The position numbers and the translations under genes are program-made. Source: Lachnospiraceae bacterium oral taxon 096 (GTDB taxonomy: Bacteria; Bacillota; Clostridia; Lachnospirales; Lachnospiraceae). From it: 64,000 bases of DNA. The notes under the pieces are model-generated. The model did no database searches. It was not told where the DNA came from and was given only the letters and a program-made list of their open reading frames with translations. Of the stretch, positions 1,967 through 22,226 are shown one piece after another. Location: the NCBI GenBank assembly GCA_018141845.1, contig CP073340.1:769001-833000 (forward strand). Direction: 5' to 3'. Position 1 is the stretch's first letter. Each line of letters begins with the position of its first letter.

Positions 1967-1987
1967 GTTTAGGAAAGGAAGAAAGAA

Positions 1988-2902: not shown

Positions 2903-3700
2903 ATGTTAACGATTAAAAATGTCAGTAAAACCTTTAATAAGGGCACAGTCAATGAAAAGAAGGCATTGCAACATTTAAATCTTCATCTTTTGCCAGGGGA
3001 TTTTGCGACGGTGATTGGTGGAAATGGAGCTGGAAAATCGACCATGCTCAATATGATTGCAGGTGTCTATCCGATAGATGCAGGGACGATTGAGATTGAT
3101 GGAGTCAATATTTCAAGGATGCCAGAGCATCAGAGGGCGAAGTATATTGGAAGAGTGTTTCAAGATCCAATGATGGGAACAGCGGCGGGGCTTGAAATTC
3201 AGGAAAACCTTGCACTTGCTTTTCGAAGGGGAAGAGCGAGGACACTTCACTGGGGATTGAAGCAATCGGAGAAGGAATACTACAAGGAGATGTTAGAAAA
3301 GCTAGGCCTTGGTCTTCATACAAGAATGACTTCAAAGGTTGGACTTTTATCTGGAGGTCAGCGACAGGCCCTCACTCTGCTCATGTCTACACTGGTAAAG
3401 CCAAAAATTTTATTGCTCGATGAGCACACGGCGGCACTGGACCCAAAGACAGCGAAGAAAGTGTTGGATTTGACCGAGGAATTTGTGAAGGAGCAAAATC
3501 TCACTGCACTCATGATTACCCACAATATGCATGATGCCATTGCTCTTGGCAATCGCTTGATTATGATGCATGAGGGACATATTATCTATGATGTGTCAGG
3601 AGAAGAAAAGAAAAAACTTCGAGTAGAAGATTTATTAAAGAAATTTGAAGAAGCCAGTGGCGGTCAGTTTTCAAATGATCGCATGCTACTTGCAAAATAG
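2903..3700 (+). CDS. ABC transporter ATP-binding protein (TrpZ-like)
   Basis: This is the ATPase of the same importer, 265 residues. It has Walker A GGNGAGKST, Q-loop VFQDP, signature LLSGGQRQAL, Walker B ILLLDEHTAALDPKT and H-loop MITHNMHDAI. Walker B reads DEH rather than the more common DEP, which is usual for this subfamily. The ATG follows the permease stop directly, implying translational coupling. Confidence 0.93.
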   Translation: MLTIKNVSKTFNKGTVNEKKALQHLNLHLLPGDFATVIGGNGAGKSTMLNMIAGVYPIDAGTIEIDGVNISRMPEHQRAKYIGRVFQDPMMGTAAGLEIQENLALAFRRGRARTLHWGLKQSEKEYYKEMLEKLGLGLHTRMTSKVGLLSGGQRQALTLLMSTLVKPKILLLDEHTAALDPKTAKKVLDLTEEFVKEQNLTALMITHNMHDAIALGNRLIMMHEGHIIYDVSGEEKKKLRVEDLLKKFEEASGGQFSNDRMLLAK

Positions 3701-3709
3701 GTTTTGATT

Positions 3710-3748
3710 AGGGGAGAGAATTCAAGAGATGTCTTGATTCTCTCCCCT
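3710..3748. terminator. Bidirectional hairpin between convergent genes
   Basis: A 17-bp inverted repeat (AGGGGAGAGAAT.CAAGA against TCTTGATTCTCTCCCCT, one bulged T) with a very short loop lies between the ABC ATPase (+) and the DUF296 gene (-). Neither side has a strong T tract, so its role as terminator for both genes is inferred from position and stem strength. Confidence 0.55.
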
Positions 3749-3754
3749 AGGTGG

Positions 3755-4180
3755 TTAGTTAAACTTATATAGATTCAATCCAATTTCTTCGGAAAATTCT
3801 CGGTCTACACAGCCATCAATTTTGTGAATGTAAAATTCACCCGTCAAGCTGATGAGACCATTGTTGAGATGTCCTGCATAGCAAAGATTTTTTGTCGTAT
3901 TGCCGACAACCATATGAATGTGTAGATAAGGTTTTCCGTCCATGGTACTAATATTTCCTGTGCAGGATGAAATTTCCATGTCACCAGTGTAGGTGGTGGA
4001 TTCATATTTTTTATCCACAGAATTAAATACACCCAAGGTAACTTTGTTTACAGCACCAATACCTATGACTGTGCCAAGTTTGATTTCTTCCTTTTCACAA
4101 AGTTGTGAGAGGGTGGCAAGAATTTCTTCACCTTTTGCAATTCTTACAATGTAGTCATTGCCAAATTTGTGATATTCCAT
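3755..4180 (-). CDS. PPC/DUF296-domain protein
   Basis: This 141-residue single-domain protein matches the DUF296 (plants-and-prokaryotes-conserved) family. The core is visible as GTVIGIGAVNKVTLGVF, then SCTGNISTMDGKPYLHIHMVVG and GHLNNGLISLTGEF. The HIHMVVG and GH residues are those that usually bind metal in bacterial members. Such proteins form trimers, and their cellular role is mostly unknown. Plant relatives carry AT-hooks, but none is present here. It is transcribed alone, towards the transporter operon. Confidence 0.85.
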   Translation of the reverse strand: MEYHKFGNDYIVRIAKGEEILATLSQLCEKEEIKLGTVIGIGAVNKVTLGVFNSVDKKYESTTYTGDMEISSCTGNISTMDGKPYLHIHMVVGNTTKNLCYAGHLNNGLISLTGEFYIHKIDGCVDREFSEEIGLNLYKFN

Positions 4181-4247
4181 AGTATAACCTCCAAGTCGAT
4201 GATTTGTTTGAAGTATAGCACAAATTTTATTTAAAAAGTAGAAAAGC

Positions 4248-4275
4248 TTGCATATAAAATCTGAAGCATTATAAT
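4248..4275 (+). promoter_or_regulatory. Promoter for the MscS gene
   Basis: TTGCAT and TATAAT are separated by 16 nt and end 28 bp before the mechanosensitive-channel start codon. Confidence 0.5.
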
Positions 4276-4303
4276 AAAAACAAAAAATGAAAGAGAAACG
4301 AAG

Positions 4304-5089
4304 ATGAAAGATATCTCAGTGATTATACAGGTTGTTGTGATTTTAGCAGTTACAGGATTGATTGTTGTGCTTGTCAATCACTTTTTTAACCGCTTTATTG
4401 CAAGGAGAGAGAAGCTGTATCAAAAGTTTATTAAGAGCATTTTGACCTTTATTATTATTGTCATCGGTGTATATGCCGCATTGTCACAATTTGAAATTGC
4501 CAGAACTATTAGTACTAGTTTATTGCAGAGTGGTTCTTTGATTATTGCGGTGGCCACTTTTGCTGCCCAGCAGGCCCTTGGCAATGTGATTTCGGGTTTT
4601 TTTATTTCTGCGACAAAACCATGTGAGATTGGACAAAAGGTAAAAATTATGTCCGGTGGAAATGTGATTGCCGAGGGAATTGTCAGGGATATGACTGTCC
4701 GACATATTTTTATAGAGCAATTTGATGGACAGAGCTATATTGTGCCCAATAGTCTTGCGGACAGTTCAGTTATTGTCAACACTAACCTTGTCGAGGATGT
4801 GGGAAATTATATTGAGATTGAAGTCGGCTATGATACCGATGTGGAAGAAGCGAGAAAGATTATTCAAAAGATTTGTGATGAAGATCCAAGAATTTTGCAC
4901 AATCAAAAGACCAAGGTCTTGGTGAGTGCAATTACGGCCAATGGTATGTTGCTTAAGTTTACGATTTGGTCAAAGAATTTAAATGATAGTTTTGAGGCAT
5001 GTAGTAATGTTCGCCAGAGGTTGGTTTCTGAATTTTTAAAGGCAGGGATTACCATTCCCTATCAGACATTTAGTGTGGAAAAGATATAA
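4304..5089 (+). CDS. Small-conductance mechanosensitive channel (MscS family)
   Basis: This membrane channel opens on hypo-osmotic shock. The protein has 261 residues. It has an N-terminal hydrophobic helix (VVVILAVTGLIVVLV), a second segment (FIKSILTFIIIVIGVYAALSQ), and the pore-lining Gly/Ala-rich helix SLIIAVATFAAQQALGNVISGFF that defines the family. The cytoplasmic beta domain follows, with VEDVGNYIEIEVGYDTD. It is shorter than E. coli MscS at the C terminus but complete in fold. It is monocistronic, with its own promoter and terminator. Confidence 0.92.
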   Translation: MKDISVIIQVVVILAVTGLIVVLVNHFFNRFIARREKLYQKFIKSILTFIIIVIGVYAALSQFEIARTISTSLLQSGSLIIAVATFAAQQALGNVISGFFISATKPCEIGQKVKIMSGGNVIAEGIVRDMTVRHIFIEQFDGQSYIVPNSLADSSVIVNTNLVEDVGNYIEIEVGYDTDVEEARKIIQKICDEDPRILHNQKTKVLVSAITANGMLLKFTIWSKNLNDSFEACSNVRQRLVSEFLKAGITIPYQTFSVEKI

Positions 5090-5090
5090 A

Positions 5091-5121
5091 AAGGCGCTGT
5101 CAAAGGGCAGCGTCTTTTTTG
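5091..5121 (+). terminator. Intrinsic terminator after the MscS gene
   Basis: GGCGCTG...CAGCGTC forms a stem followed by a TTTTTT run, directly after the stop codon. Confidence 0.75.
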
Positions 5122-5135
5122 TACAGCAGTATTAG

Positions 5136-5477
5136 CTAGTTCCAAGTTTTCCATATTTCTGGTTGGTAGCCGAGAGTGGATTGCTTTCCATTTCGCACAA
5201 CTGGAGTTTGGATGACCTGTGGATTTTCTAATACTTTTTCGAGTTTGTCCTCGTCGCAGATGTGTTGAATGAGTGCGAGTAAGTCCTTGTCCTTGCCATT
5301 CCAGTTAATCATATTTTGAAGACCACCATTGGCTTGAGCGACACTGTTGAATTCGCCTTTGCTCATTCCCTTTTCTTTCATGTCAATAAATTGATACTTG
5401 ATTCCTCTTTCTTTGAAAAAGCGTTCGGCCTTTTTGGTATCATTGCATTTTTTTGTTCCAAAAATTTGTATATTCAT
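5136..5477 (-). CDS. ArsC/Spx-like thioredoxin-fold protein
   Basis: This 113-residue protein belongs to the ArsC/Spx/YffB superfamily (PF03960). The N terminus IQIFGTKKCNDTKKAERFF carries the single catalytic-type cysteine of the CX(S/T)TKKA motif. The C-terminal half has the conserved cis-proline region (QTPVVRNGKQSTLGYQPE). It could be a glutathione-independent arsenate-reductase relative or a regulator of the Spx type, and sequence alone does not decide. The ATG at 5477 is preferred over a TTG one codon earlier because GAGG lies 9 nt upstream. The IS110 element starts close upstream and may have replaced its original promoter. Confidence 0.8.
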   Translation of the reverse strand: MNIQIFGTKKCNDTKKAERFFKERGIKYQFIDMKEKGMSKGEFNSVAQANGGLQNMINWNGKDKDLLALIQHICDEDKLEKVLENPQVIQTPVVRNGKQSTLGYQPEIWKTWN

Positions 5478-5544
5478 CAATAAAATCCTCGTATTATATA
5501 GTAGTAGTTTTTAGAGACCCTCTCCAAGGTCTTTATAACTATTA

Positions 5545-5660
5545 AGTCATAGTCTTTTCTTTACCTCTTCCGTAGGTTCGACTATGATATATAAGATACT
5601 GTGGATTGGTTATTTACTCCTACCACTTGATGGTTTTAGAAAGGCCCCAACCACAGTCTC
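5545..5660 (+). ncRNA. Candidate bridge RNA of IS110 #1
   Basis: Two strong hairpins lie in tandem in the noncoding end upstream of the transposase. The first has stem TCATAGTC/GACTATGA (5547-5554 with 5580-5587) around a 25-nt loop. The second has stem ACTGTGG.TTGG/CCAACCACAGT (5598-5609 with 5647-5657) around a 37-nt loop. IS110 bridge RNAs carry a target-binding loop and then a donor-binding loop in this order. The loop assignments here are inference. Confidence 0.55.
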
Positions 5661-5778
5661 TTTGCTCATTTGTTAATCAGTTAGATACCGCATGACGGTT
5701 TATTTAGAACGAGGCTACAATCGCAAGGAGTCCCTGTGGTTCTAAAACAGTATCAAATACATTTTAAAGGAGATTATT

Positions 5779-6954
5779 ATGATTTATGTAGGAATTGATG
5801 TCGCTAAGGATAAGCATGATTGCTTTATCACAAACTCTAATGGAGAAGTATTATTTAAAGCTTTTACCATTTCTAACAGTCAAGATGGTTTCAATGACCT
5901 TTACCAAAGAATAGAATCTGTTATGGAAGATATAACAAAAGTAAAAGTAGGACTGGAAGCTACCGGACACTATAATTACAATCTTTTAGGTTATCTCATT
6001 GATAAAGGTCTGACCACCTATGTCATCAATCCGTTACATACAAATCTGTACAGAAAAAGTCTAAGCCTTAGACTCACGAAAACGGATAAAGTAGATGCCC
6101 GCACGATTGCTTACATGCTCATGTCTGATGTGAACTTGAAGTCCTACTCAGATACATCTTACCACAACGAAGAATTAAAGTCATTAACTCGTTATCGTTT
6201 TGATAAGGTAAAAGAACGTGCCAAACTAAAAACTTCCGTTTCAAGACTGGTCTGTATCTTATTTCCTGAATTAGAAAAACTTGTACCAACACTTCATATG
6301 ACATCCATTTATGCATTGCTTTCTGAATTTCCCGGGGCTAAATATGTAGCTGGTGCACATCTTACCAGACTTACAAATCTTCTTTCAGATGCATCTAAAG
6401 GTCGATATGGTAAAGATACCGCCATAACTTTCAGGGAAGCTGCAAGGGCTTCTATCGGCTCAAATATGCCAGCCAAATCTCTTGAACTAAAACACACCAT
6501 CAAGTTGATACTGGAACTTGCTTCTGAGATTGATGAAATCGAAAATGAAATCAAAATTATCATGGATGAAATTAATTCTCCAATTCTCAGTATTCCAGGT
6601 ATCAACTATCGTATGGGCGCTATGATCATTGCCGAGATTGGCGACTTCAGTCGGTTTGATTCTCCTGATAAAATCTTGGCTTATTCCGGATTTTCACCAT
6701 CAACATATCAATCAGGGCAGCTTGACTCAGCATACTCCCACATGGAAAAACGAGGTTCCAAATACTTACGATATGCTCTGTACAATGCTGCCAAGTATGT
6801 TTGCCACTGGGATTCGACATTTGCCAGGTACCTTACCAAGAAACGAGCTGAAGGCAAGCATTATAATGTTGCAATATCTCATGCCGTCAAAAAACTGGTT
6901 CGAGTTATTTATCATCTTGTAAAATCGAATCAGCAATACATTAAAGTAGCTTAA
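5779..6954 (+). CDS. IS110-family transposase (DEDD recombinase)
   Basis: This RNA-guided recombinase has 391 residues. The N-terminal RuvC-like DEDD domain shows YVGIDVAKDKHDCFI, GLEATGHYNYNL, and KTDKVDARTIA. The C-terminal Transposase_20 domain shows SIPGINYRMGAMIIAEIGDFSRF and AYSGFSPSTYQSG, with the serine-bearing segment before HMEKRGSKYLRYALYNAA. All four acidic positions appear present and the frame is open throughout, so the gene looks intact. AAAGGAG lies 7 nt upstream of the start. Confidence 0.95.
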   Translation: MIYVGIDVAKDKHDCFITNSNGEVLFKAFTISNSQDGFNDLYQRIESVMEDITKVKVGLEATGHYNYNLLGYLIDKGLTTYVINPLHTNLYRKSLSLRLTKTDKVDARTIAYMLMSDVNLKSYSDTSYHNEELKSLTRYRFDKVKERAKLKTSVSRLVCILFPELEKLVPTLHMTSIYALLSEFPGAKYVAGAHLTRLTNLLSDASKGRYGKDTAITFREAARASIGSNMPAKSLELKHTIKLILELASEIDEIENEIKIIMDEINSPILSIPGINYRMGAMIIAEIGDFSRFDSPDKILAYSGFSPSTYQSGQLDSAYSHMEKRGSKYLRYALYNAAKYVCHWDSTFARYLTKKRAEGKHYNVAISHAVKKLVRVIYHLVKSNQQYIKVA

Positions 6955-7213
6955 TTAACTCTAATTCAATACTCCTTTTTCATGCACCTATCATGATGCT
7001 CTTTTTGTCATGCAGTTTTCAAAGTGCAAGGAGCTCTAACTGTATTCCGAATATATCTAAAATACATTTCTGTACTTTATTTAAAAAATATCATTTTAGG
7101 GCTTGACTTTTAATAGTTAGTCTTTCTGTATGATGTGTCACATTGTATTCTATTATTATAACAGATCTGCCTTGGGATTGAATATACCTAAAAATTGGGC
7201 TAAGATATTCTAG

Positions 7214-7333
7214 ATAAAATTAGGAAATGGTGTGGAGGGAGTAGTGTTAGAAACCCACAAGAATTGGGTAAATGGTGATCCTCTTCAAAGTATTCAGATG
7301 AGCTCAAAATTTATGAAGGAGCATTTTCGTTAG
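7214..7333 (+). pseudogene. Possible C-terminal gene remnant
   Basis: A short open stretch reads LETHKNWVNGDPLQSIQMSSKF and then a few residues to a stop. It is followed within 12 nt by a strong terminator, as the end of a real gene would be. An in-frame stop at 7211 closes it upstream. It may be the tail of a gene removed when IS110 #1 or the neighbouring island arrived. I do not recognise the family. The rest of 6980-7213 shows no gene. Confidence 0.3.
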
Positions 7334-7344
7334 GAAAATAAGAA

Positions 7345-7378
7345 AAGACGCTACAGGACTAAAAACTAGTAGCGTCTT
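7345..7378 (+). terminator. Intrinsic terminator
   Basis: AAGACGCTAC...GTAGCGTCTT forms a perfect 10-bp stem with a 14-nt loop. A-rich sequence before the stem and a T-rich end allow function on either strand. It sits just beyond the split tRNA-Arg 3' half. Confidence 0.65.
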
Positions 7379-7381
7379 TAA

Positions 7382-7423
7382 TGTTCCTGAGCGGAGTCGA
7401 ACCGCTGGCCTTTCGCTTAGGAG
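7382..7423 (-). pseudogene. 3' half of a split tRNA-Arg(CCU) gene
   Basis: On the minus strand the fragment begins at the anticodon loop CTCCTAA. It continues with the anticodon 3' stem GCGAA, a 5-nt variable loop, the T arm AGCGG-TTCGACT-CCGCT, and the acceptor strand CAGGAAC plus discriminator A. The missing 5' half lies 2.8 kb away at 10240-10279. Joined at the shared CTCCTAAG the two halves give a complete cloverleaf whose 7-bp acceptor stem pairs. Confidence 0.85.
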
Positions 7424-7611
7424 TTCGTCCTGGTACAGAAAACAGCTTGCATTCTATTTATAAATGATGACTACCATTACCTAACATTTTATAGTAATGA
7501 TTATTTGGTTTTCTTATTAGATTTATATTTATTATATCGTGCCTGTAGTCAACTGTCGATAACAAATTGACCGCAAATGCATTATTTTTTCTTGCTTTTA
7601 CACTGGATACC

Positions 7612-8979
7612 TTATATGGTTTTCGGGCGGGTTGCCAGTTCAACATGGGCTCTAATCAATGCTTTGAAAATATATTCATACAATGCATTAAAATCATTCT
7701 CTTTGTCGGCAATTTCTAATGCATTATAATATTCCTCTTTTCTCTCAACATCGATATAGAATGGTGGCATACCATAGCGAATCAACATTTTAATCATAAA
7801 TCCTCTGCTTGTTCGCCCATTTCCATCTGGAAACGGATGAATAACCGTAATCCTATGGTGAATATCTGCAATCAATTCAACGATTCGGCTTCTGCTCAGC
7901 TCACCAGATTCACTTTCTAGTAATGACACCGTATCATTGAGTTTTATCAATTCCGGCATAACATCCCGCCAATCTACTGTCTCAAATTTTGCACCTAAAA
8001 CAAGGACATTATCTTTTCTTGTTGATCCTCCGTATTCCGGATTTGGACAACAGGAAAATAATTTCTTATTCAAGGTTGATAATTGATAAATATCAATTCT
8101 GTCATTATATGCCGTCTCAAAAATAAAATCGTACATCACAGAATGTCCTGCTACATTGCAAAAGCCGTCATAGGACTCTGTGCAATAGTCACTTACTTGG
8201 CGATTCTCTTGCAGATCCTCGATTATTTCAGATGCTGCATCATAAGTGGTTTTTACACCCTCAAGGCGGGCATCATTATAAACATACTTACTTTTGAACA
8301 AACGCCTTGCAAACTCAAGACTATTCGTTGGTGAAATATCTTCCCAGGCGTCAAACAATCCTTCGTATAGCTTTGTATATGAAAATCCCAATTTCTTTCG
8401 ATGTGTTTCTGACTTATATTTACTTAATTCTTTGCTTGAATAATAAGCGATCAGATATGGGAACAAATTTCGAATTCGATAGTAACAGGCTCTAAAACTT
8501 GTACCAAAATAATCAGCTATCTTGAGAATATCATCAAATGTCAATTCATCATCACCAGGATGGAGGTTATCTATCTGAATGCGTAATTCGTCCTCTGGCA
8601 TAAGAAAAGAAGCTGCAAAAGACTCCGCATATTTCTCTTTATATTCATTTGATGAAATAGCACACATAAATGTTGGTTGTGTATCTGCATCTTTAAGAAA
8701 ATGGCACAGCTCATGCGCTGCTGAAAATCTCTGTCGGGTAATCGGGCTTTTCGCATTAATTGCCACCAAATCTATTGGCATATCCGCTGTGGATGGCATA
8801 AACAGACCTTCCATTTTATCAAAATTTCTAAATACAAAATGAATACCCAGGTCTGTTAAAACCTGAAAAGGGTTAATCGGAAACGCCTTTTCATGCTCCT
8901 TAAAGTACTGTTCTGAAAAGTACTTTGCCAGTCCCTGGGCATCATTTCGATATTGATTTAGTATTTCTTTATCCAGCAT
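7612..8979 (-). CDS. ImmA/IrrE metallopeptidase - Fic domain fusion protein
   Basis: This 455-residue protein has two catalytic modules. Residues about 35-135 form an ImmA/IrrE (PF06114) zinc peptidase with the HEXXH motif HELCH (89-93) and the downstream glutamate in YAESFAASFLMP (about 119). Residues about 225-450 form a Fic AMP-transferase-type domain with the full active-site motif HPFPDGNGRTSR (381-392). Ahead of it, NDARLEG (235-241) stands where class II Fic proteins carry the (S/T)xxxE(G/N) inhibitory helix. The Glu-Gly is kept but Ser/Thr is replaced by Asp. The ATG is 12 nt after the XRE gene stop, preceded by GGGGG. Expected roles are a peptidase that cleaves a repressor and a protein-modifying toxin or regulator. 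The target is unknown. Confidence 0.88.
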   Translation of the reverse strand: MLDKEILNQYRNDAQGLAKYFSEQYFKEHEKAFPINPFQVLTDLGIHFVFRNFDKMEGLFMPSTADMPIDLVAINAKSPITRQRFSAAHELCHFLKDADTQPTFMCAISSNEYKEKYAESFAASFLMPEDELRIQIDNLHPGDDELTFDDILKIADYFGTSFRACYYRIRNLFPYLIAYYSSKELSKYKSETHRKKLGFSYTKLYEGLFDAWEDISPTNSLEFARRLFKSKYVYNDARLEGVKTTYDAASEIIEDLQENRQVSDYCTESYDGFCNVAGHSVMYDFIFETAYNDRIDIYQLSTLNKKLFSCCPNPEYGGSTRKDNVLVLGAKFETVDWRDVMPELIKLNDTVSLLESESGELSRSRIVELIADIHHRITVIHPFPDGNGRTSRGFMIKMLIRYGMPPFYIDVERKEEYYNALEIADKENDFNALYEYIFKALIRAHVELATRPKTI

Positions 8980-10860: not shown

Positions 10861-10911
10861 GTGTGGCAGTTCAGTCAATGGCTTCTTATCTTTTGCGAAA
10901 GGAGTTACACT

Positions 10912-12186
10912 ATGAAAGTTACTTATCAAACCTGTTGTGGTGTCGATGTTCACAAATCTTTTCTTGTTGCCACAATCATCAAAACTACCGCCGGTATTGA
11001 ACCTTCTTATCAAAAGAAGCGATTCTCTACCTTCAACAATTCTATTTTAGACTTTAAATCGTGGCTTCTTAAAAATGAATGCCATGATGTCTGTATGGAA
11101 TCCACAGGTAAATACTGGGTTCCTGTCTTTAATCTTCTCGAAGATCAAATCAACGTTACCATTGCTAATCCCAAATGGGTTAAAGCTGTTAAGGGTAACA
11201 AGGACGATACCAAAGATTCTAAATGGATTGGAGACTTATTCCGACTGGGACTTGTGAAAAGCAGCTACATTCCTTGTAGGTTGATCCGTATTCTTAGAGA
11301 ATACACAAGATATCGTTACAAGCTTGTTTCTTGCCGTTCAAGTGAAAAGAATAGATATCAGAATGCTCTTACTGTTTGTAATATCGCATTAGATTCTGTT
11401 GTATCCGATATCTTTGGGAAGTCATCCTCATCCATTATCGATTATCTGCTTGAACAATCAGGTACTACGATTAACCATGAAGAAATCTCTTCAAAACTTC
11501 TTAAGAGCCTCAAATCCAAAGAAGACGCTGTGATTGAATCTATCGAAGGATATCAGATGACTGATGCCCAGAAATATCGTATGCGCCTAATTCGCGCACA
11601 TATGGATTATATCACAGCTGAAATCAATGATATAGATAAACAGATTGAATCTTTGATTTCTTCCGATCCTGATTATGATAAAGCTATTCGGTTACTAACT
11701 ACCATTCCGGGTGTCAAACGTGATAGTGCAATTACTATCATCTCCGAAATTGGTATTGATATGTCTCAGTTTTGTAATTCTAAACGCTTATGTTGTTGGG
11801 CAGGTCTTACCCCCGGCAACAATGAATCTGCCGGTAAGAAGAAATCTGTCCGTATTACACGTGCCGGTGTCTACCTCAAACCTGCATTAGTACAGTGTGC
11901 TCATGCAGCCGTGAAATCTGACAAGTCTCCTTACTACAAAACGAAATATGAATCCCTTGTTAAACGCCGTGGCAAGAAAAGAGCTGTTATTGCCATTGCC
12001 CGTATGATTCTTATAGCCATCTACCGGATGCTGTCTACCGGAGAGGTATGGAATCCAAGCGATCTTTACAAAATCGATATGCCTGCACCTTTAGCTGAAA
12101 AACAGAAGGCTAAGGCTATCAAGCAAGCCAAAAAACTTTTACAAAAGGAAGGACTGCTTCCTCCTGATGAACCTTTAGCTTCTTGA
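10912..12186 (+). CDS. IS110-family transposase (DEDD recombinase)
   Basis: This 424-residue recombinase has the N-terminal motifs CCGVDVHKSFLVATI, DVCMESTGKYWVPV and DDTKDSKWIGDL. The C-terminal Transposase_20 domain has TTIPGVKRDSAITIISEIG, CWAGLTPGNNESAGKKKS and RAGVYLKPALVQCAHAA. The frame is intact. The ATG at 10912 has AAAGGAG 7 nt upstream and is preferred to an in-frame GTG at 10861. It groups with a different IS110 branch from the copy at 5779, judging by low similarity. Confidence 0.95.
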   Translation: MKVTYQTCCGVDVHKSFLVATIIKTTAGIEPSYQKKRFSTFNNSILDFKSWLLKNECHDVCMESTGKYWVPVFNLLEDQINVTIANPKWVKAVKGNKDDTKDSKWIGDLFRLGLVKSSYIPCRLIRILREYTRYRYKLVSCRSSEKNRYQNALTVCNIALDSVVSDIFGKSSSSIIDYLLEQSGTTINHEEISSKLLKSLKSKEDAVIESIEGYQMTDAQKYRMRLIRAHMDYITAEINDIDKQIESLISSDPDYDKAIRLLTTIPGVKRDSAITIISEIGIDMSQFCNSKRLCCWAGLTPGNNESAGKKKSVRITRAGVYLKPALVQCAHAAVKSDKSPYYKTKYESLVKRRGKKRAVIAIARMILIAIYRMLSTGEVWNPSDLYKIDMPAPLAEKQKAKAIKQAKKLLQKEGLLPPDEPLAS

Positions 12187-12281
12187 TCAATCTACTAAAT
12201 CTATATCCTCAAATAAGTTGCCTACTTAAGACAGCTTATTTAAGTGCGCCGGTTTACGGCTTACCTCTACTTTCTTTCACA

Positions 12282-13223
12282 CTATGTATCTATCTTAATA
12301 TAATTTCTACCATTCCATTTTGACTTATATTCCAGTTGTCTTGTCAGCTCATACCACGATACATCGCTTATAGTTTTCGCTAAATTATGATTTTTCACCA
12401 TATTTTTTATCTGTAAGTTTTCCGAAACTATCACTTGGTTTTCGTTTATAATTTCGCTTGAAATCTTATGCAGATAATCTTTTCTTGTATTAGCTATTTT
12501 CTCATGGCATAGTGCTATTTGTTTCCTTTTTTTCTGATAGTTCCTACTCCCCTTTGTTTTATTTGCTAATTGTCTTTGTAATCTTGTAAGCTTTTTCTCA
12601 TATTTTTTAATTGTCTTCGGATTTTCATATTTCTTCCCATCTGATGTGATACATAAATCTTTTATCCCTAAATCCAATCCTATTTGTCCGTTTGTCTTTA
12701 CAAGTGGACTATGTTCAGTTTCTACAAGAACAGACACATAGTACTTGCCGCTTGGTACCTTAGATATAGTTACTGTTTTTATCCGACCTGAAAATTTTCT
12801 ATGTAATTTTATTTTTACCCTTTTTAATTTTGGCAGCTTTATTCTTCCTCTATCAAAATCTACAGTTATATTCCCATTTGTAAAATTGGTTGTATATGAT
12901 TTACGATTACTGTGCTTACTCTTAAACTTTGGATAACCTGCATGTTCTTTGAAAAACTTTTGATAAGCACTATCCATATTATAAATTGCATTTGTTAAAG
13001 CAAATTTATCTACTTCTTTTAGCCATTCATAAGCTTTTTTCAGCTCTCTATTGCAATAATTATTACAATCTGTTTTACTGACAGACTTTTTTTCTTTTTC
13101 ATAAGCATCTTTTCTGTACGCAAGGGTTTGATTATATACAAAACGACAACAGCCAAATGTCTTTGCTAACTGTATTTCTTGCTCTTTGTTTGGATAAATC
13201 CGATATCTATATGCCTTTAACAT
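12282..13223 (-). pseudogene. tnpB N-terminal part (RNA-guided nuclease gene cut by IS110)
   Basis: This part encodes 312 residues of an IS605 OrfB/TnpB protein. It starts with KAYRYRIYPNKEQEIQLAKTF and RFVYNQTLAYR, and contains the first RuvC catalytic aspartate (IGLDLGIKDL) and the second motif region (VIVSENLQIKNM). The reading continues three codons into IS110 sequence before a stop, losing the zinc ribbon and last catalytic Asp. TnpB normally cuts DNA guided by omega RNA. This copy is inactive unless IS110 excises. The start ATG is 23 nt after the tnpA stop. Confidence 0.92.
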
Positions 13224-13246
13224 TAAGCTTACCCGCCTTTCTACCC

Positions 13247-13645
13247 TTAATTTTCTATATATTGCTTTAACATTTCTTCAGAAACATTGCCTACGCTACA
13301 AGCAAAATATCCATCCGTCCAAAATGTATGTTCTTTCCAAAAATGATTCTTAAGATATTCTGTATGCTTTTTCCATATATGATATGTTGTATAGCTCTTA
13401 ATTAGATTAACCACTTTACTTATGGATATTGTAGGCTCAGTTTTTATCATATAGTGTATATGGTCTTTGTCTGTTTCCATATATTTTATGATTATATTAC
13501 TCTTTGTGCATATCTCATAAGAAAATTGTTTTATATAATCTGATATTTCTTTTGATACTAAAAGCTTTTTTCTATACTTACATACAAAAATAATATGATA
13601 TTGTAATAAATATTTGTGTCTATTCTTTAATTTCCATACTCCCAT
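13247..13645 (-). CDS. tnpA: IS200/IS605 transposase TnpA (Y1 HUH)
   Basis: This single-strand DNA transposase has 132 residues, the usual size. The HUH motif is DHIHYMI. The preceding YHIIFVCKYRKKLL strand and the segment FWTDGYFACSVGNVS are family hallmarks. The C-terminal QYIEN carries the catalytic tyrosine. The gene looks intact, so this element could still move itself and similar mini-elements in trans. Confidence 0.95.
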   Translation of the reverse strand: MGVWKLKNRHKYLLQYHIIFVCKYRKKLLVSKEISDYIKQFSYEICTKSNIIIKYMETDKDHIHYMIKTEPTISISKVVNLIKSYTTYHIWKKHTEYLKNHFWKEHTFWTDGYFACSVGNVSEEMLKQYIEN

Positions 13646-13789: not shown

Positions 13790-13818
13790 TTGACAATGAA
13801 ACTAACATAAGATAATAT
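13790..13818 (+). promoter_or_regulatory. Promoter of the opp operon
   Basis: TTGACA (13790-13795) and TAATAT (13813-13818) are spaced by 17 nt. This is the best consensus match in the first 20 kb, 38 bp ahead of the binding-protein start. Confidence 0.7.
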
Positions 13819-13856: not shown

Positions 13857-15623
13857 ATGATGAAGAAAAGATTTGTAGCATTAGCACTGATGAGTATTAT
13901 GTCAGCGAGTATGCTTGCCGCTTGTGGCGGAAAAAAGTCTGATTCAGCGACTTCAACAACCGCAACAACAGAAACAACCGCAGCAACAGATAATAAAAGT
14001 GCAACATCTACAGGAAAAAAGAGTGAGGCAGCACCTGAATGGACAGCATATGATGAGCTGATTCAGTCAGTATATCAGGATGCAGATCTAGTACACAGAG
14101 AAGCTACTTTGCACAAGGCAGAGGCTATGTTGATGGACACAGGTGCTGTGGCACCATTGTACTATTACAATGATTTGTATATGCAAAAGCCAGATTTACA
14201 GGGCGGCATTGTTACCCTTGTTGGTAGTCATAAGCTTTTTATGTATATGACCAACAAGGGACAGCCAATTGATGTGTTGAGAATCAATCTTGCATCAGAG
14301 CCAGATAAGCTCGATCCAGCATTGACCTCAACTACTGATGGTGGATCTTTGGCAGCGAACTCATTTGTCGGTCTCTATGTTATGGGCAATGACAACAAGA
14401 TTTCTCCAGCACTTGCAGATGGAGATCCAACCGTTTCCTCCGATGGCAAGGAGTACACCATTAAGTTGAAGAAGGATTTGAAGTGGAGCGATGGCTCACC
14501 ACTCAATGCCAATGACTTTGTCTACTCTTGGAAGAGAGCAGCAGATCCAAAGACAGGTTCCGATTATTCCTATCTATTTGACATTATGGAAAAAGGATCC
14601 GATGGAACCATTGATGTCAGTGCAGTGGATGACAACACTTTGAAGTTTAAGTTAAAGGCTCCAGTGCCTTATATGATGGAATTATTGACCTTCTCAACCT
14701 ATATGCCAGTGCCAAAGGCCAGCGTTGAGGGAGCAAAGGATCACGAGGCAAATCCTGGTGCTTGGGCATCTGAGGCAGGTTTTGTCAGCAATGGTGCCTA
14801 TACTTTGAAAGAGTGGAAGCACAATGAGTCTATGGTCTATGTAAAGAATCCAAACTTCTATGACGCAGATAAGGTGACCGTCAATGAGCTTCACTTTATG
14901 CTCAGTGCCGATGACACAGCTATTCTTGCAGCATATCAGGCAGGAAACCTTGACTTTATCGACTCTGTGCCAAATGGTGAGATTGACAACTTAAAGAGTT
15001 TGCCAGATTTCCATGTTGTAAACAACCTTGGTACCTACTATGTTGGATTTAATGTCAACAGCAAGATGTTTGATGGAAAGACACCAGAGCAGGCGAGCAA
15101 GATGCGCCGTGCACTTGGTCTTTTGATTGACCGTCAGTACATTGTAGACACTATCGGAAAGACAGGACAGCAGCCTGCCAACACCTTTGTTCCAGCTGGA
15201 ATGAGCGATGGTCATGGTGGTATCTTTAAGCAGGACGATGATGCTTATAAGTATCCAGTAGATGGTGGTTACTATAAGATTGCTGTAGATAAGGATCAGG
15301 CAATTTCTCTTCTCAAGGAGGCAGGATATAAGTTTGATGACAATGGTATGTTGAGCTCAGAGACTCCAATTACCATTAACTACCTTGTTAACCAGAATAC
15401 AGGAAATGAAGCGATTGCACAGGCAATACAGCAGGATTGGGCAGCGATTGGTATCACGATGAATATTTCTACTGAGGATTGGCAGACATTCGTTAATGAC
15501 CGAAAGGTTGGCAACTTTGATGTGGCTAGAGAGGGATGGCTTGCCGATTACAATGATCCTGCAAATATGTTGGAGCAGTTTATGTCTACATCAGGAAATA
15601 ACAACGAACAGTTAGGTAAGTAA
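13857..15623 (+). CDS. oppA: Oligopeptide-binding lipoprotein OppA, apparently circularly permuted
   Basis: This 588-residue SBP_bac_5 family protein has a signal peptide with lipobox MLAAC (Cys23), followed by a Thr/Ser-rich linker to about residue 60. Residues 61-133 (YDELIQ, LHKAEAMLMDTGAVAPLYYY, LVGSHKLFMYMT) match the segment that normally closes the C terminus of OppA-type proteins. Only then, from about 138, does the usual N-terminal start appear (LRINLASEPDKLDPALTST). The protein ends at REGWLADYNDPANMLEQF plus a short tail, exactly where that segment is expected. The frame is intact. The neighbouring oppBCDF genes support an oligopeptide-uptake role. Confidence 0.93.
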   Translation: MMKKRFVALALMSIMSASMLAACGGKKSDSATSTTATTETTAATDNKSATSTGKKSEAAPEWTAYDELIQSVYQDADLVHREATLHKAEAMLMDTGAVAPLYYYNDLYMQKPDLQGGIVTLVGSHKLFMYMTNKGQPIDVLRINLASEPDKLDPALTSTTDGGSLAANSFVGLYVMGNDNKISPALADGDPTVSSDGKEYTIKLKKDLKWSDGSPLNANDFVYSWKRAADPKTGSDYSYLFDIMEKGSDGTIDVSAVDDNTLKFKLKAPVPYMMELLTFSTYMPVPKASVEGAKDHEANPGAWASEAGFVSNGAYTLKEWKHNESMVYVKNPNFYDADKVTVNELHFMLSADDTAILAAYQAGNLDFIDSVPNGEIDNLKSLPDFHVVNNLGTYYVGFNVNSKMFDGKTPEQASKMRRALGLLIDRQYIVDTIGKTGQQPANTFVPAGMSDGHGGIFKQDDDAYKYPVDGGYYKIAVDKDQAISLLKEAGYKFDDNGMLSSETPITINYLVNQNTGNEAIAQAIQQDWAAIGITMNISTEDWQTFVNDRKVGNFDVAREGWLADYNDPANMLEQFMSTSGNNNEQLGK

Positions 15624-15641
15624 TAAGAGGATTTCTAGGAT

Positions 15642-15671
15642 AGCTGTATACCCGCTGTTGGGTATGCAGCT
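15642..15671 (+). promoter_or_regulatory. Intercistronic hairpin between oppA and oppB
   Basis: AGCTGTATACCC and GGGTATGCAGCT form a 12-bp stem with a 6-nt loop, 18 nt after the oppA stop. No T run follows. It is likely a partial terminator or 3' stabiliser that gives more binding protein than permease. Confidence 0.55.
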
Positions 15672-15701
15672 ATATCTATTTATGGAGAAAGGGGAAGAAA
15701 G

Positions 15702-16613
15702 ATGCTGAAATATACCATTAAAAGAATCTTCTTGGCGGTAATTACCCTGTTTTTAATCTGCTTTATTACCTTTTTTGCAATGAATGCAGTACCAGGTGGT
15801 CCGTTCAATGGAGAGAAGGCAAAGTCGGCTGAGGTTTTAAGGGTATTGAATGCAAGGTATGGCTTAGATCAGCCAGTACTTGTGCAATTTAAAAATTATA
15901 TGGTCAATCTCTTACATGGAGACTTTGGTATTTCACTGACAACAGGAAGAGATATTGGAAAGACCATTTCGGAGTCCTTTGTGGTATCTGCACGAATTGG
16001 AGGAATTGCAGTTATTATTGCCTTGATTTTTGGCATTATTTTGGGCAGTGTTGCAGCACTCAATCGAAATAAGTGGCCAGATAGAGTGATTATCTTTTTT
16101 GTCACATTGTTTACTGCAATGCCAAGTTTTGTGTTGGGTTCATTTTTATTGCTTGTTTTTTGCATTCAATTAAAGGTTGTGCCAGTGTGGAGTACAAATA
16201 ATCCAAATTATGTGTTGCCTGTCATTGCACTTTCTCTGTCACCAATGGCCTATATCACGAGGTTGACAAAGACAAGTATGCTCGATGTGCTCGGACAGGA
16301 CTATGTGCGCACTGCAAGAGCAAAGGGCGTGAGTCCATGGAAGATTATTTTTGTGCACTCATTGCGCAATGCCTTGATTCCAGTCATTACCTATGTCGGG
16401 CCACTGACAGCCTCTATTTTGACAGGATCGTTAGTTGTTGAGACCATTTTTACCATTGGTGGTCTGGGATCAAAGTTTGTAGATAGTATTACAAAGAGAG
16501 ATTACACAATGATTATGGGAACGACGATTTTCCTTGCAACATTGATGGTTGTGATGAATTTGGTTTCCGACTTGGTATATAAGTTGGTTGACCCAAGAAT
16601 TAAGTTAGATTAG
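15702..16613 (+). CDS. oppB: Oligopeptide ABC transporter permease OppB
   Basis: This inner-membrane component has 303 residues and six predicted membrane segments, starting YTIKRIFLAVITLFLICFI. The family N-terminal motif (MNAVPGGPF, then ARYGLDQPVLVQF) is present. So is the coupling EAA loop region DYVRTARAKGVSPWKIIFVH. It ends DLVYKLVDPRIKLD, typical of OppB/DppB. The gene lies 78 nt after oppA with the hairpin between them, and 17 nt before oppC. Confidence 0.95.
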   Translation: MLKYTIKRIFLAVITLFLICFITFFAMNAVPGGPFNGEKAKSAEVLRVLNARYGLDQPVLVQFKNYMVNLLHGDFGISLTTGRDIGKTISESFVVSARIGGIAVIIALIFGIILGSVAALNRNKWPDRVIIFFVTLFTAMPSFVLGSFLLLVFCIQLKVVPVWSTNNPNYVLPVIALSLSPMAYITRLTKTSMLDVLGQDYVRTARAKGVSPWKIIFVHSLRNALIPVITYVGPLTASILTGSLVVETIFTIGGLGSKFVDSITKRDYTMIMGTTIFLATLMVVMNLVSDLVYKLVDPRIKLD

Positions 16614-16630
16614 TACAGAGGAGAGAAATT

Positions 16631-17710
16631 ATGGCAGAAAATTATGATATACCTGCACCAAAAAAGCATATGCTCAGTATGCAAATCGACCCTGCACTTT
16701 TTGAAAAGGCGACGGACGAGGAGAAAAAGCAAGCAGATGTCATGGCTGAGTCCACCACCTTTTTTAAGGATGGTATGAGAAGATTGATGAGAAACCCATT
16801 GGCGGTCTTCTCTATGGTAGTGTTGGCCCTTGTATTGGCTCTCATCATTGTGACACCAAGAGTTGTGCCATATAGTTATGAGCAGATTATTACAGTGGAT
16901 GGAAAGAGAGATAAACAGGCGAACAACTTAAAGCCATTTCAGTATTCACCAATAGAAAAGCAATATATGGAAAAGACCAATACAAAGCTGTTTCCACATA
17001 TCATGGGAACAGATGAATTGGGAAGAGATTACTTTATTCGTGTCATCTATGGAACGAGAGTATCGGTATTGGTCGGTGTATTTGCCAGTTTGATGGTTTT
17101 GGTGATTGGTACAGTATATGGCTCGATTGCGGGATATATGGGAGGAAAACTTGATTTGGCAATGATGAGAATTGTCGATATTATTTACTCCCTGCCTGAT
17201 CTATTGATTATTATTCTATTGAGTGTCGTATTTAAGGAAAAGTTTGATTTTAGTAAGATTCCCATTATTGGCGGTCTTGGAACAAATATGGTATCCATGT
17301 TTATTGTATTTGGTCTCTTGTATTGGGTTGGAATGTCAAGACTGGTCAGAGGTCAAATTTTGACCATCAAGGAAAATGAATATGTATTGGCCAGCAAAGC
17401 CACCGGTGCAAGTGCAGGACATATTATCAGAAAACATATTTTGCCAAACTGTATCAGCGTCATTATTATCAGTACAGCACAGCAAATCCCATCTGCTATT
17501 TTTACAGAGTCCTATCTTTCCTTTATTGGACTGGGTGTTGCTCTTCCTATGCCTTCTTTGGGATCTCTTGCCAATGCAGCGAGATCAGGTATGCAATCCT
17601 ATCCGTTAAAATTGGTATTTCCAGCAGCAATGATTATCTTGATTGTACTTGCATTTAACTTGCTTGGCGATGCAATGCGCGATGCATTTGATCCAAAGCT
17701 ACAAAAATAA
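16631..17710 (+). CDS. oppC: Oligopeptide ABC transporter permease OppC
   Basis: This second permease has 359 residues. A cytoplasmic N-terminal region of about 60 residues precedes the first membrane helix (PLAVFSMVVLALVLALIIV), as in OppC. MGTDELGRDYFIRVIYGTRVSV is the hallmark segment, and EYVLASKATGASAGHIIRKHILPN is the EAA loop. The end GDAMRDAFDPKLQK is characteristic. It pairs with OppB to form the channel. Confidence 0.95.
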   Translation: MAENYDIPAPKKHMLSMQIDPALFEKATDEEKKQADVMAESTTFFKDGMRRLMRNPLAVFSMVVLALVLALIIVTPRVVPYSYEQIITVDGKRDKQANNLKPFQYSPIEKQYMEKTNTKLFPHIMGTDELGRDYFIRVIYGTRVSVLVGVFASLMVLVIGTVYGSIAGYMGGKLDLAMMRIVDIIYSLPDLLIIILLSVVFKEKFDFSKIPIIGGLGTNMVSMFIVFGLLYWVGMSRLVRGQILTIKENEYVLASKATGASAGHIIRKHILPNCISVIIISTAQQIPSAIFTESYLSFIGLGVALPMPSLGSLANAARSGMQSYPLKLVFPAAMIILIVLAFNLLGDAMRDAFDPKLQK

Positions 17711-17736
17711 GTTGTGTGTAGATAGGGGAAACAAAT

Positions 17737-18753
17737 ATGGCAGAAAATACAAATGTAAATAACGAGACCGTGCTGAGCGTAAGAAATTTAAACACATCAT
17801 TTTTTACTGACTCAGGAGAGGTGCGTGCAGTCAACGGCGTATCTTTTGAATTAGGTCGAGGAAAGATTTTGGGTGTTGTTGGAGAGTCTGGTTCTGGAAA
17901 GTCGGTTACGGCGTATTCCATTATGCAAATTTTATCCTCAACAGGAAAAGTTGTTGATGGAGAAATTCTCTACAAGGGAGAAAATATTTTAAATTATTCC
18001 AAGAAGCAGTTGGACAATTTTCGAGGCGACAAGTGCAGTATTATTTTCCAGGATCCAATGACGAGTTTAAATCCAACTTTTACTGTGGGTTACCAATTGA
18101 ATGAGGCACTTCAACTTCATACCAAATATAAGGGAAAAAAGGAAGCAACGCAGCGCTCGATTGAATTATTGGAGATGGTTGGAGTAAATCAGCCAGATAA
18201 GCGTATTAAGCAATATCCATTTGAGCTTTCCGGTGGAATGCGCCAGCGTGTGATGATTGCAATGGCTCTGGCCTGTGAGCCAGATATTTTGATTGCAGAT
18301 GAGCCGACGACAGCTCTGGATGTGACCATTCAGGCACAGATTTTGGAATTGATGCAGGATTTGCAAAAGAAGCTAGGAATGGCAATTATTATGGTTACCC
18401 ATGACCTTGGCGTTATTGCTTCTATGTGTGATGAGATTATTGTAATGTATGGTGGACGAGTGTGTGAGAGGGGAACAGCAGATGATATTTTCTACAATCC
18501 ACGCCATGAGTACACCAAGGGGCTCCTTCGCTCCATTCCAAAGGCATCCAATATGAATGAAAAATTGGTTCCTATTGCAGGCTCTCCAATCAATCTTTTG
18601 AATTTGCCAAAAGGTTGTGCATTTTGTAGCCGATGTGAGAATGCAATGAAGATTTGTTTGACACAAAAGCCAGAGGAATTACCTGTGGATGATCGCCACT
18701 ATGCGGCTTGTTGGCTCAATGTCAAGAAGATGATGGAAGAGGAGGCAAGATAA
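17737..18753 (+). CDS. oppD: Oligopeptide ABC transporter ATPase OppD
   Basis: This 338-residue ATPase has Walker A GESGSGKS, signature [17 protein letters not shown], Walker [15 protein letters not shown] and H-loop VTHDLGVIA. It also carries the C-terminal oligopeptide-transporter extension with cysteines ([21 protein letters not shown]), which binds an iron-sulphur cluster in DppD/OppD relatives. The stop overlaps the oppF start (TAATG), so the two ATPases are translationally coupled and should form a heterodimer. Confidence 0.95.
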
Positions 18754-19724
18754 TGGAAAAGAAACAAAATGACTTCCTCGTAGAAGTAAAGGACTTAAAA
18801 ATGCACTTTCCAGTGAAGACAGGTTGGTTTTCTTCAAAGCCATTAAAAGCCGTAGATGGCGTGAGCTTTGAAATTAAGCCAGGAGAAACATTGGGTCTTG
18901 TAGGTGAGTCAGGTTGTGGAAAGACAACAGTTGGTCGTGCACTTCTTCGCCTTTACAAGCCAACCTCTGGAGAATTTCGTTTTAATGGGGAACTGGTCAA
19001 TGACCAGAGTATTCGGCATTTGAGAAAAGAAATGCAGATGGTATTTCAAGATCCCTATTCCTCACTCAATCCAAGAATGACCGTAGAGGATATTATTGGT
19101 GAGCCACTCGATGTGCATAAGCTCTACACAACAAGGGCAGACCGAAGAGAGAAAATTTTGAGTTTGATGGAGACTGTTGGTTTGAATGCCGAGCATGCCA
19201 CAAGATATGCTCATGAATTTTCAGGCGGACAGAGGCAAAGAATTGGAATTGCAAGAGCACTTGCTGTTGATCCAAAGTTTATTGTCTGTGATGAGGCGGT
19301 GTCAGCACTGGATGTTTCCATTCAGGCACAGGTCATTAATATGTTTGAGGAACTTCAGGAAAAATTGGGTGTTGCCTATTTATTTATTGCCCATGACCTC
19401 TTGGTTGTACATCATATTTCCAATCGCATTGCGGTAATGTATCTTGGAAAAATTGTGGAGATTGCGGATGCAGATGAGCTGAATCGTTCACCAATTCATC
19501 CTTATAGCTTGTCGCTTCTTTCTGCTGTACCAATTCCAGATCCAAAGATTGCAAGGCAGAGTAAGAGAATTATTCTTGAAGGCGATGTGCCAAGCCCTCT
19601 GAATATGCCAAAAGGTTGTGCATTTCGAACAAGATGTCGCTATGCGACAGAGCAATGTGCCAATGAGTGCCCACCACTGACGGATCGTGGTCAGGGGCAT
19701 ATGGTTGCGTGCTGGAATAAGTAA
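18753..19724 (+). CDS. oppF: Oligopeptide ABC transporter ATPase OppF
   Basis: This 323-residue ATPase has Walker A GESGCGKT, signature [15 protein letters not shown], Walker [14 protein letters not shown] and H-loop [14 protein letters not shown] in Walker B instead of DEP is typical of OppF. The C-terminal cysteine motif [15 protein letters not shown] is present. The ATG shares its A with the oppD TAA. An upstream in-frame start at 18708 lies wholly inside oppD and lacks a ribosome site. Confidence 0.95.
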
Positions 19725-21176: not shown

Positions 21177-22226
21177 ATGAGTATGACAAAAAAGAATTTA
21201 TTGAAAAGTGTTGCGACATTGGCTCTTTCCTTGGGTATGGTTGTAGGAATGGCATCAATGGCTTTTGCTGCACAAAAGACGGTAATTAATCATGTGAATT
21301 TGCATTTTGATACTTCAGAGATTGAGGCAGGATCTGGGGAAAAGAAGATCGGTGTCGATTCTTCAGACGAAGGTTTTGATGTTGCTGGAGAGGAGGGAGT
21401 AGCCACCAATATGTCGGGTAGCCGATGGTTGACTGGCAATGTTCCTGAGTTCAAGGTGACATTGAGAGCCGATGAGGACCATAAGTTTAATACTTCCAGT
21501 TTAAGAAATTCTGGATATTACACCCTCTCAGGAGATAAGGTTTACTTTGTAAAGAGCAGCGGAACATCGAATTCTTTGACCTTGTATGTCAAGATGGCGA
21601 AGTTGAGCAATGGTTTGACCAGAGGAGATTTAAAGGTTGAGGATGCCGATTGGAATGAAGACACACGCACAGCGACATGGAATGGTGGAAATTATGCCAA
21701 TCGCTACACATTGAAGCTCTACAAGGGCAATGTTTTATTGACCACAGTGGACACAACAAATAGTTCCTATGACTTCTCAAATTACATCACAACTCCAGGA
21801 AACTACAAGTATAAAATCAGAGCGTACTATGATGGAAGCTATGGCGAGTGGGCAACTTCCGATGAGTTTGATTTGGACAATGATTATTTTAATGACCACA
21901 ATATTGCAAATAGAAGAACAACAGCAGGTTGGCTCAGAGATAATACAGGTTGGTGGTATCGCAATGCCAATGGCTCTTACACAACCAACAACTGGCAGCT
22001 GATTAATGGAAGATGGTATTTCTTTAATGCGAATGGATATATGGTCACTGGCTGGGTACAGTGGAAGGGCGCATGGTATTTCTTAAATGCTGATGGTGGT
22101 ATGGCTACTGGCTGGGTACAGTCCAAGGGACTTTGGTACTATATGTCAGGAAGTGGAAGTATGTTGTCCAATACAAGAACTCCAGATGGCTACTATGTCA
22201 ATGGCGATGGTGTTTGGGTAAGATAA
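21177..22226 (+). CDS. Secreted protein with C-terminal cell-wall-binding (choline-binding type) repeats
   Basis: This 349-residue exported protein has a signal peptide of about 34 residues ending AFAAQ. The middle region (about 35-240) is beta-rich and includes a fibronectin-like stretch (ATWNGGNYANRYTLKLYKGNV, NYKYKIRAYYDG). The C terminus has four to five aromatic repeats of the GWWY/GRWYFFNANGYMVTGWV type (PF01473/PF19127), which attach proteins to the cell envelope. No catalytic domain is recognisable, so it may be an adhesin or structural surface protein. The start could be 21177 or the ATG two codons on. Confidence 0.85.
   Translation: MSMTKKNLLKSVATLALSLGMVVGMASMAFAAQKTVINHVNLHFDTSEIEAGSGEKKIGVDSSDEGFDVAGEEGVATNMSGSRWLTGNVPEFKVTLRADEDHKFNTSSLRNSGYYTLSGDKVYFVKSSGTSNSLTLYVKMAKLSNGLTRGDLKVEDADWNEDTRTATWNGGNYANRYTLKLYKGNVLLTTVDTTNSSYDFSNYITTPGNYKYKIRAYYDGSYGEWATSDEFDLDNDYFNDHNIANRRTTAGWLRDNTGWWYRNANGSYTTNNWQLINGRWYFFNANGYMVTGWVQWKGAWYFLNADGGMATGWVQSKGLWYYMSGSGSMLSNTRTPDGYYVNGDGVWVR

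Follow-up and report, generated by a model that had tools for sequence, protein, structure and literature searches.

A circularly permuted OppA-type lipoprotein in an opp operon, and apparent switches of chain order among its close relatives

Introduction

Natural circular permutations of proteins are usually studied between distant homologues. The permutations of DNA methyltransferases, along with permutation by duplication, are reportedly the subject of work by Jeltsch in 1999 and Bujnicki in 2002. For these enzymes, passages of PMC3320104 describe permuted members together with duplicated or partly duplicated intermediates, and set out a permutation-by-duplication model. Among ABC transporters, passages of PMC4990184 present TpMglB-2 (Tp0684) of Treponema pallidum and its relatives, for which the name "Cluster Bc" is proposed, as an ABC binding lipoprotein that is circularly permuted in nature; this cluster occurs mostly in treponemes and Gram-positive bacteria, and the authors of those passages raise anchoring as a reason for it.

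Here, we describe a permuted protein of the peptide-binding OppA/SBP_bac_5 family. An earlier note, made from the DNA alone, knew of no described permuted OppA, and we found no report of a permuted peptide-binding protein of this family in the open-access literature searched. The gene lies in a stretch of 64,000 nucleotides of Lachnospiraceae bacterium oral taxon 096 (positions 769,001 to 833,000 of contig CP073340.1), called the window below.

The Window Protein

The open reading frame at 13857-15623 on the + strand runs from an ATG at 13857 to a stop codon at 15621-15623 and encodes 588 aa; as the earlier note had read it, the frame is open and the signal peptide intact, with the lipobox LAAC present. 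Its parts are the following:

13857..13925, + strand: signal peptide and lipobox, residues 1-23 (MMKKR...LAAC), with Cys 23 as the predicted lipidated residue
13926..14036, + strand: low-complexity linker rich in S, T and A, residues 24-60, mostly predicted to be disordered
14037..14255, + strand: moved segment, residues 61-133, the counterpart of the last ~75 residues of canonical OppA
14256..14267, + strand: short linker KGQP, residues 134-137, connecting the old C- and N-termini
14268..15620, + strand: core, residues 138-588, from the canonical N-terminal start through ...GNNNEQLGK to the stop codon, without the C-terminal segment

The canonical start had been placed at about residue 138; this holds, as it lies at about 138-141, with the small correction that residue 138 is the I of IDVLRINLASEPD.

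A phmmer search of PDB sequences aligned residues 140-584 with 21-449 of Bacillus subtilis OppA (8are) and residues 65-121 with 457-513, i.e., in swapped order. The second of these matches is weak (18.5 bits, i-Evalue 0.0059), and on the next two OppA chains the moved segment reached only 9.3 and 9.2 bits (i-Evalue 3.6); yet it shares 57.5% identity over about 72 residues with the C-terminal segment of a closer canonical relative (L078), so that the homology of the segment is unambiguous. The proposal that residues 61-133 are the C-terminal segment of OppA placed ahead of the canonical start thus stands, and the first outcome named as refuting it did not occur, the segment aligning with the C-terminal part of its homologues.

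The nearest matches of the window protein are family 5 binding proteins, and its PF00496 score (305.3 bits against a curated cut-off of 32.4) places it in SBP_bac_5. The match spans residues 181-583 only because PF00496 models the middle of the protein, which also means, for annotation, that permuted and canonical members give an identical match. With the full-length OppA profile of NCBIfam (NF011684, 543 positions), the window protein (P0001) aligns at profile positions 43-464 and a canonical sister (P0123) at 12-524; as the window protein does not follow the canonical N-to-C order of this profile, we class it as a permuted variant. Both of its segments are homologous to a canonical relative, swapped and present in one copy each. 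This confirms a circularly permuted, 588-residue OppA-type lipoprotein without a second copy of the segment. Direct repeats inside the gene are limited to a weak pair in the linker (13929-13948 and 14013-14032, 80% over 20 nt) and two further short families, all too weak to be informative.

Predicted Fold

The AlphaFold2 model of the window protein has a pTM of 0.82, with pLDDT below 50 across residues 1-53. In the moved segment, two helices (63-74 and 78-95) and a strand (98-110) are modelled with pLDDT of 90-95, and residues 111-130 with 63-77 only; the counterparts in the canonical sister P0123 are helices 504-515 and 519-535 and strand 539-551. Most of the moved segment is thus predicted to be ordered, and its elements are those of the sister. 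The model has the fold of solved OppA proteins, matched over about residues 130-588 only, the structure aligners being sequential and hence unable to place residues 61-133; we infer that the moved segment would dock at its canonical place. In such a protein, the C-terminal helix-helix-strand segment would be made first, then the short linker, then the core, and the chain would fold to the usual OppA shape. The main physical effect would then be that the lipid tether is moved from the old N-terminus to a loop lengthened before the permutation.

The opp Operon and Its Surroundings

The gene does head an oppBCDF operon, as had been proposed, the adjacent transporter genes all being of the OppBCDF type:

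15640..15673, + strand: terminator-like hairpin of 15 pairs between oppA and oppB
15702..16613, + strand: oppB-type permease (PF00528 and PF19300)
16631..17710, + strand: oppC-type permease (PF00528 and PF12911 OppC_N)
17737..18753, + strand: oppD-type ATPase (PF00005 and PF08352)
18753..19724, + strand: oppF-type ATPase (PF00005 and PF08352; Pfam read from 18756)

Homology and operon together suggest that the window protein is a lipid-tethered receptor, which would bind peptides and pass them to the transporter; there is no sign of a new substrate. The hairpin perhaps lowers expression of the transporter relative to the receptor. The near-consensus promoter of the earlier note is not supported: a TTGACA-17-TAATAT match (10/12) does lie at 13790-13818, among five promoter-like sites in the scanned region against a mean of 5.0 after shuffling, i.e., no better than chance.

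Immediately upstream of oppA, at 10861-13645, the window holds an IS110-type transposase gene followed by one like IS605 OrfB and one like the IS200 Y1 transposase. On the other side of the operon, at 21177-22226, a protein with choline-binding/cell-wall-binding repeats is encoded.

Among the 37 related loci examined, which include both orders, 34 have oppF as the immediate upstream neighbour of the receptor gene. The remainder are L046 and L055, where no opp gene is present in the stretch viewed, and L203, with an oppF of only 49% lying further off. The window (13857-19724) has oppA first, as oppABCDF, and oppA is last in those 34 loci; the window operon is itself rearranged relative to related loci.

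Distribution of the Permuted Order

In two sets drawn with permuted queries, and thereby biased towards the order of the query, 118 of 121 database proteins (the query and the 120 listed of 4534 matches) are permuted, two are fragments lacking the segment and one is canonical, and the best 80 of 315 loci in named genome records comprise 77 permuted genes, two fused tandems and one canonical gene. A less biased picture comes from a sample of 396 genomes of the bacterial family: 36 contain a gene that reaches E 1e-120 or better and, judged by the open frames, 24 of these are permuted and 12 canonical. This threshold uses the permuted query and so also favours its order; each of the 36 has a single match at this level, three candidates having been scored per genome. 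One of the 24, the gene at 1243-3075 of a single-contig genome (G294; L136), carries an in-frame TAG and is a pseudogene or a sequence error. In a sample of 398 genomes from the phylum, we found the window's own genome and one other, G461, the only genome of its family.

Orthologues with the same order, which the earlier note had asked for, thus turned out to form a widespread permuted family, far beyond one odd gene. Leftover C-terminal copies, which it had also considered, were not found among the permuted proteins classified, tandem fusions apart. Most relatives are metagenome-assembled; records not labelled as bins in which the order is permuted include Lachnospiraceae bacterium NK3A20 (L046), Roseburia sp. 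1XD42-69 (L064) and Proteiniclasticum aestuarii SCR006 (L109). Among the canonical relatives are proteins that bear the names Roseburia hominis and Lachnospiraceae bacterium C1.1.

The permuted receptor also occurs within longer chains. Twelve long homologues listed (P0210, P0212, P0216, P0248, P0253, P0254, P0256 and P0259-P0263) have an N-terminal protein kinase domain and a hydrophobic stretch, then a permuted SBP_bac_5 receptor, an arrangement confirmed by Pfam in 2 of the 12; from their sequences, they are possible peptide-sensing transmembrane kinases. In P0214 and P0215, S-layer homology (SLH) domains precede a permuted SBP_bac_5 receptor, as confirmed by Pfam for P0215.

Both Orders in Close Orthologues

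The permuted gene L034 (Butyrivibrio sp. isolate UW_MP_LCO3_1, a bin) and the canonical gene L193 (G161) encode cores that are 83.8% identical as proteins. In the former, the segment (6127-6356) precedes the core (6375-7715); in the latter, the core (2772-4115) precedes the segment (4126-4355). At the nucleotide level, the cores share 80.0% identity, and the upstream opp genes are collinear at 77.5% over 2564 columns; the segments are 73.7% identical. With dN 0.10 and dS 1.12 for the core, and pN 0.14 and pS 0.78 for the segment, synonymous sites being saturated, both parts are under purifying selection. In two further genes, L138 and L078, the segments match permuted sisters best, as do the cores.

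We counted order changes on three trees. A quick core tree of 114 rows (230 before fragments, tandem rows and near-copies were removed) requires at least seven. A careful tree of core and segment, for which 40 further rows (long branches and crown permuted rows) were removed by hand, leaving 74, needs six changes, at least five of them forced by starred branches; the permuted genes formed one clade in 0 of 200 bootstrap trees, and the AU test, run on this set only, rejects a single permuted clade (p-AU 1.35e-58). A second careful tree, built on 71 hand-picked rows with more canonical genes, needs eight changes, at least four of them forced by starred branches. In both careful trees, the permuted genes L119 and L124 branch from within canonical ones; the permuted L143 (G349), with 37% core identity, sits on a long branch that shifts between trees. 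As far as the trees go, the family has thus gone through several switches between the canonical order and that of the window, in an ambiguous direction. Such repeated switching suggests that the two orders are near-equivalent or alternately favoured.

Two Further Cut Points

Two relatives are permuted at other places, and both belong with the canonical sister group (L152 and its kin). P0267 (733 aa) aligns with the canonical L152 (603 aa) by its residues 179-361 on 419-601 and 364-733 on 46-411; it rests on two contigs, the longer of 13.5 kb. An N-terminal extension of about 145-175 residues without a receptor match lies ahead of its permuted receptor. Among 12 matching genomes (E 1e-117 or better; 397 family genomes, two candidates scored in each), this cut point was not seen, 11 having the pieces in canonical order and one (G416) having them on two contigs.

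The second, L236 (590 aa, from G461), has its own lipoprotein signal peptide and stop codon, with oppC, oppD and oppF upstream on the same strand, and is known from one bin of 75% completeness. Its residues 51-316 align with 337-600 of L152 and 323-587 with 48-313. As three different cut points are present, the wider group has undergone at least three independent permutations, whatever the trees say.

Fused Forms and the Common Junction

A common junction is found in nearly all 76 permuted rows listed, the protein ending near NNDxQ[LF]G[KR] before the stop codon and the segment starting near PDWxxYD. In canonical genes, the loop at this cut is short but extra inside the clade, longer in the sisters L152-L154 and L156-L158, and absent in farther relatives. 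Since the longer loop is already there in the canonical sister group, the lengthening seems older than the window-type permutation; for the same reason, loop scars cannot serve as a test of polarity, permuted and reverted ancestry looking alike.

Fused tandems of both orders exist. L079 (a 1329-aa ORF, 3607-7593) and L082 (1307 aa, 3673-7593) come from rumen bins with the labels Anaerolineaceae and Chloroflexi and adjoin opp genes. Each carries, in one frame, a signal peptide and a linker ahead of two segment-core units, with inner linkers of 82 and 86 residues between the units; they may be late fusions rather than intermediates. P0175 corresponds to L079 in the database (98.6%), and two more proteins, P0135 and P0152, seem to be parts of such fusions. 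P0251 has a signal peptide, a core, a segment and then another core that lacks a signal peptide of its own; as the two cores are only 73% identical, P0251 is not a copied assembly. Residues 340-876 of P0251 are collinear with 51-587 of L236 (72.7%), with the same end point, and by their sequences P0251 resembles a tandem trimmed halfway and L236 one trimmed completely, P0251 being known from one 3.5-kb contig, the end of which may be placed by chance.

Origin of the Permutation

We read the product of the window gene as the peptide receptor, tethered to the membrane, of an Opp ABC importer and as a true circular permutant of the SBP_bac_5 fold that would have arisen by tandem fusion and trimming, a reading to which we give a probability of roughly 0.8. 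In this mechanism, oppA (or a permuted copy of it) would be tandemly duplicated and fused in frame, and each end of the fusion would then be trimmed, which could yield either order and any cut point. Fused tandems of both orders fit such a permutation by duplication; the intermediates are few and metagenomic, and are either ancestors or side products.

How often and in which direction the window's own cut was made is another matter. One ancient, basal permutation followed by reversions only, or its mirror, independent gains only, would be an alternative history, and the junction common to most permuted genes fits a single origin. On 1000 bootstrap trees of the 71-row set, rooted on canonical outgroups, gains alone are possible with at least 7 events and one gain plus losses with at least 8; the medians of these one-way models, 10 and 9, are nevertheless higher than that of the free model (median 8, minimum 6). 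Moreover, L119 and L124 sit inside canonical genes, the common breakpoint may only mark the loop that was already long in the canonical sisters, and two other cut points lie within that very sister group. We therefore hold a one-way history to be a serious but somewhat doubtful possibility.

Direct cut-and-paste, in which the segment would be transposed or recombined inside the gene with no duplicated intermediate, is a named model ("cut and paste" in passages of PMC3320104), and the IS110 and IS200/IS605 elements immediately upstream of oppA in the window speak for it. The existence of fused tandems of both orders speaks against it, as does the likeness of P0251 and L236 to two stages of one trimming series, and we consider this route unlikely.

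Still less probable, in our opinion, is that cores passed between separate permuted and canonical paralogues, by gene conversion or lateral transfer, and so gave the appearance of multiple changes. Many branches within the clade are short or open, and paralogues do occur, two named genomes having two permuted copies each (L055 and L057; L056 and L059). However, each of the 36 genomes above has a single match at the threshold used, the segments of L138 and L078 agree with their cores in being closest to permuted sisters, the upstream opp genes are collinear with similar divergence, and the other cut points would be left unexplained.

Finally, an assembly error or chimaera, which one might suspect with relatives mostly metagenome-assembled and with P0091 and P0264 resembling assembly duplications, is rejected, as the window genome is a single 2.24-Mb contig, near-identical proteins come from many contigs (18 for P0004) and the non-bin records L046, L064 and L109 have the permuted order too.

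Beyond the tandem origin of the window gene, a broader reading strikes us as just about probable: the chain order of OppA would be evolutionarily reversible, tandem fusion and trimming recutting it at several loops and flipping it both ways within the opp operon, and the permuted module would also be reused in tandem receptors and as the presumed outer domain of transmembrane protein kinases, in which tethering by the N-terminus at this loop may be an advantage.

Comparison with Known Systems

With canonical OppA/SBP_bac_5 proteins (PF00496; 8are of B. subtilis, OppA of E. coli), the window protein shares the homologous segments, the predicted core fold, the lipoprotein signal and the opp neighbours; it differs in having the C-terminal ~75 residues first, with the tether on an internal loop and the old termini joined. 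TpMglB-2, according to passages of PMC4990184, has the sugar-binding Type I/Cluster B fold, and the first strands of its N-lobe have moved to the C-terminus, a move opposite to that of OppA; close orthologues that differ in order, multiple cut points and fused intermediates, as seen here, are absent from those passages on TpMglB-2. The DNA methyltransferases are a different class of proteins, whereas here the switch separates close orthologues that follow the same operon genes.

With both orders in orthologues of about 84% core identity, and with fusions that have survived, the pathway, the cost and the possible advantage of a permutation become testable on matched natural pairs. Permuted sugar-binding proteins and DNA methyltransferases were already known; what is new here is a permuted family of peptide receptors, with switching among close orthologues, three cut points and fused forms of both orders.
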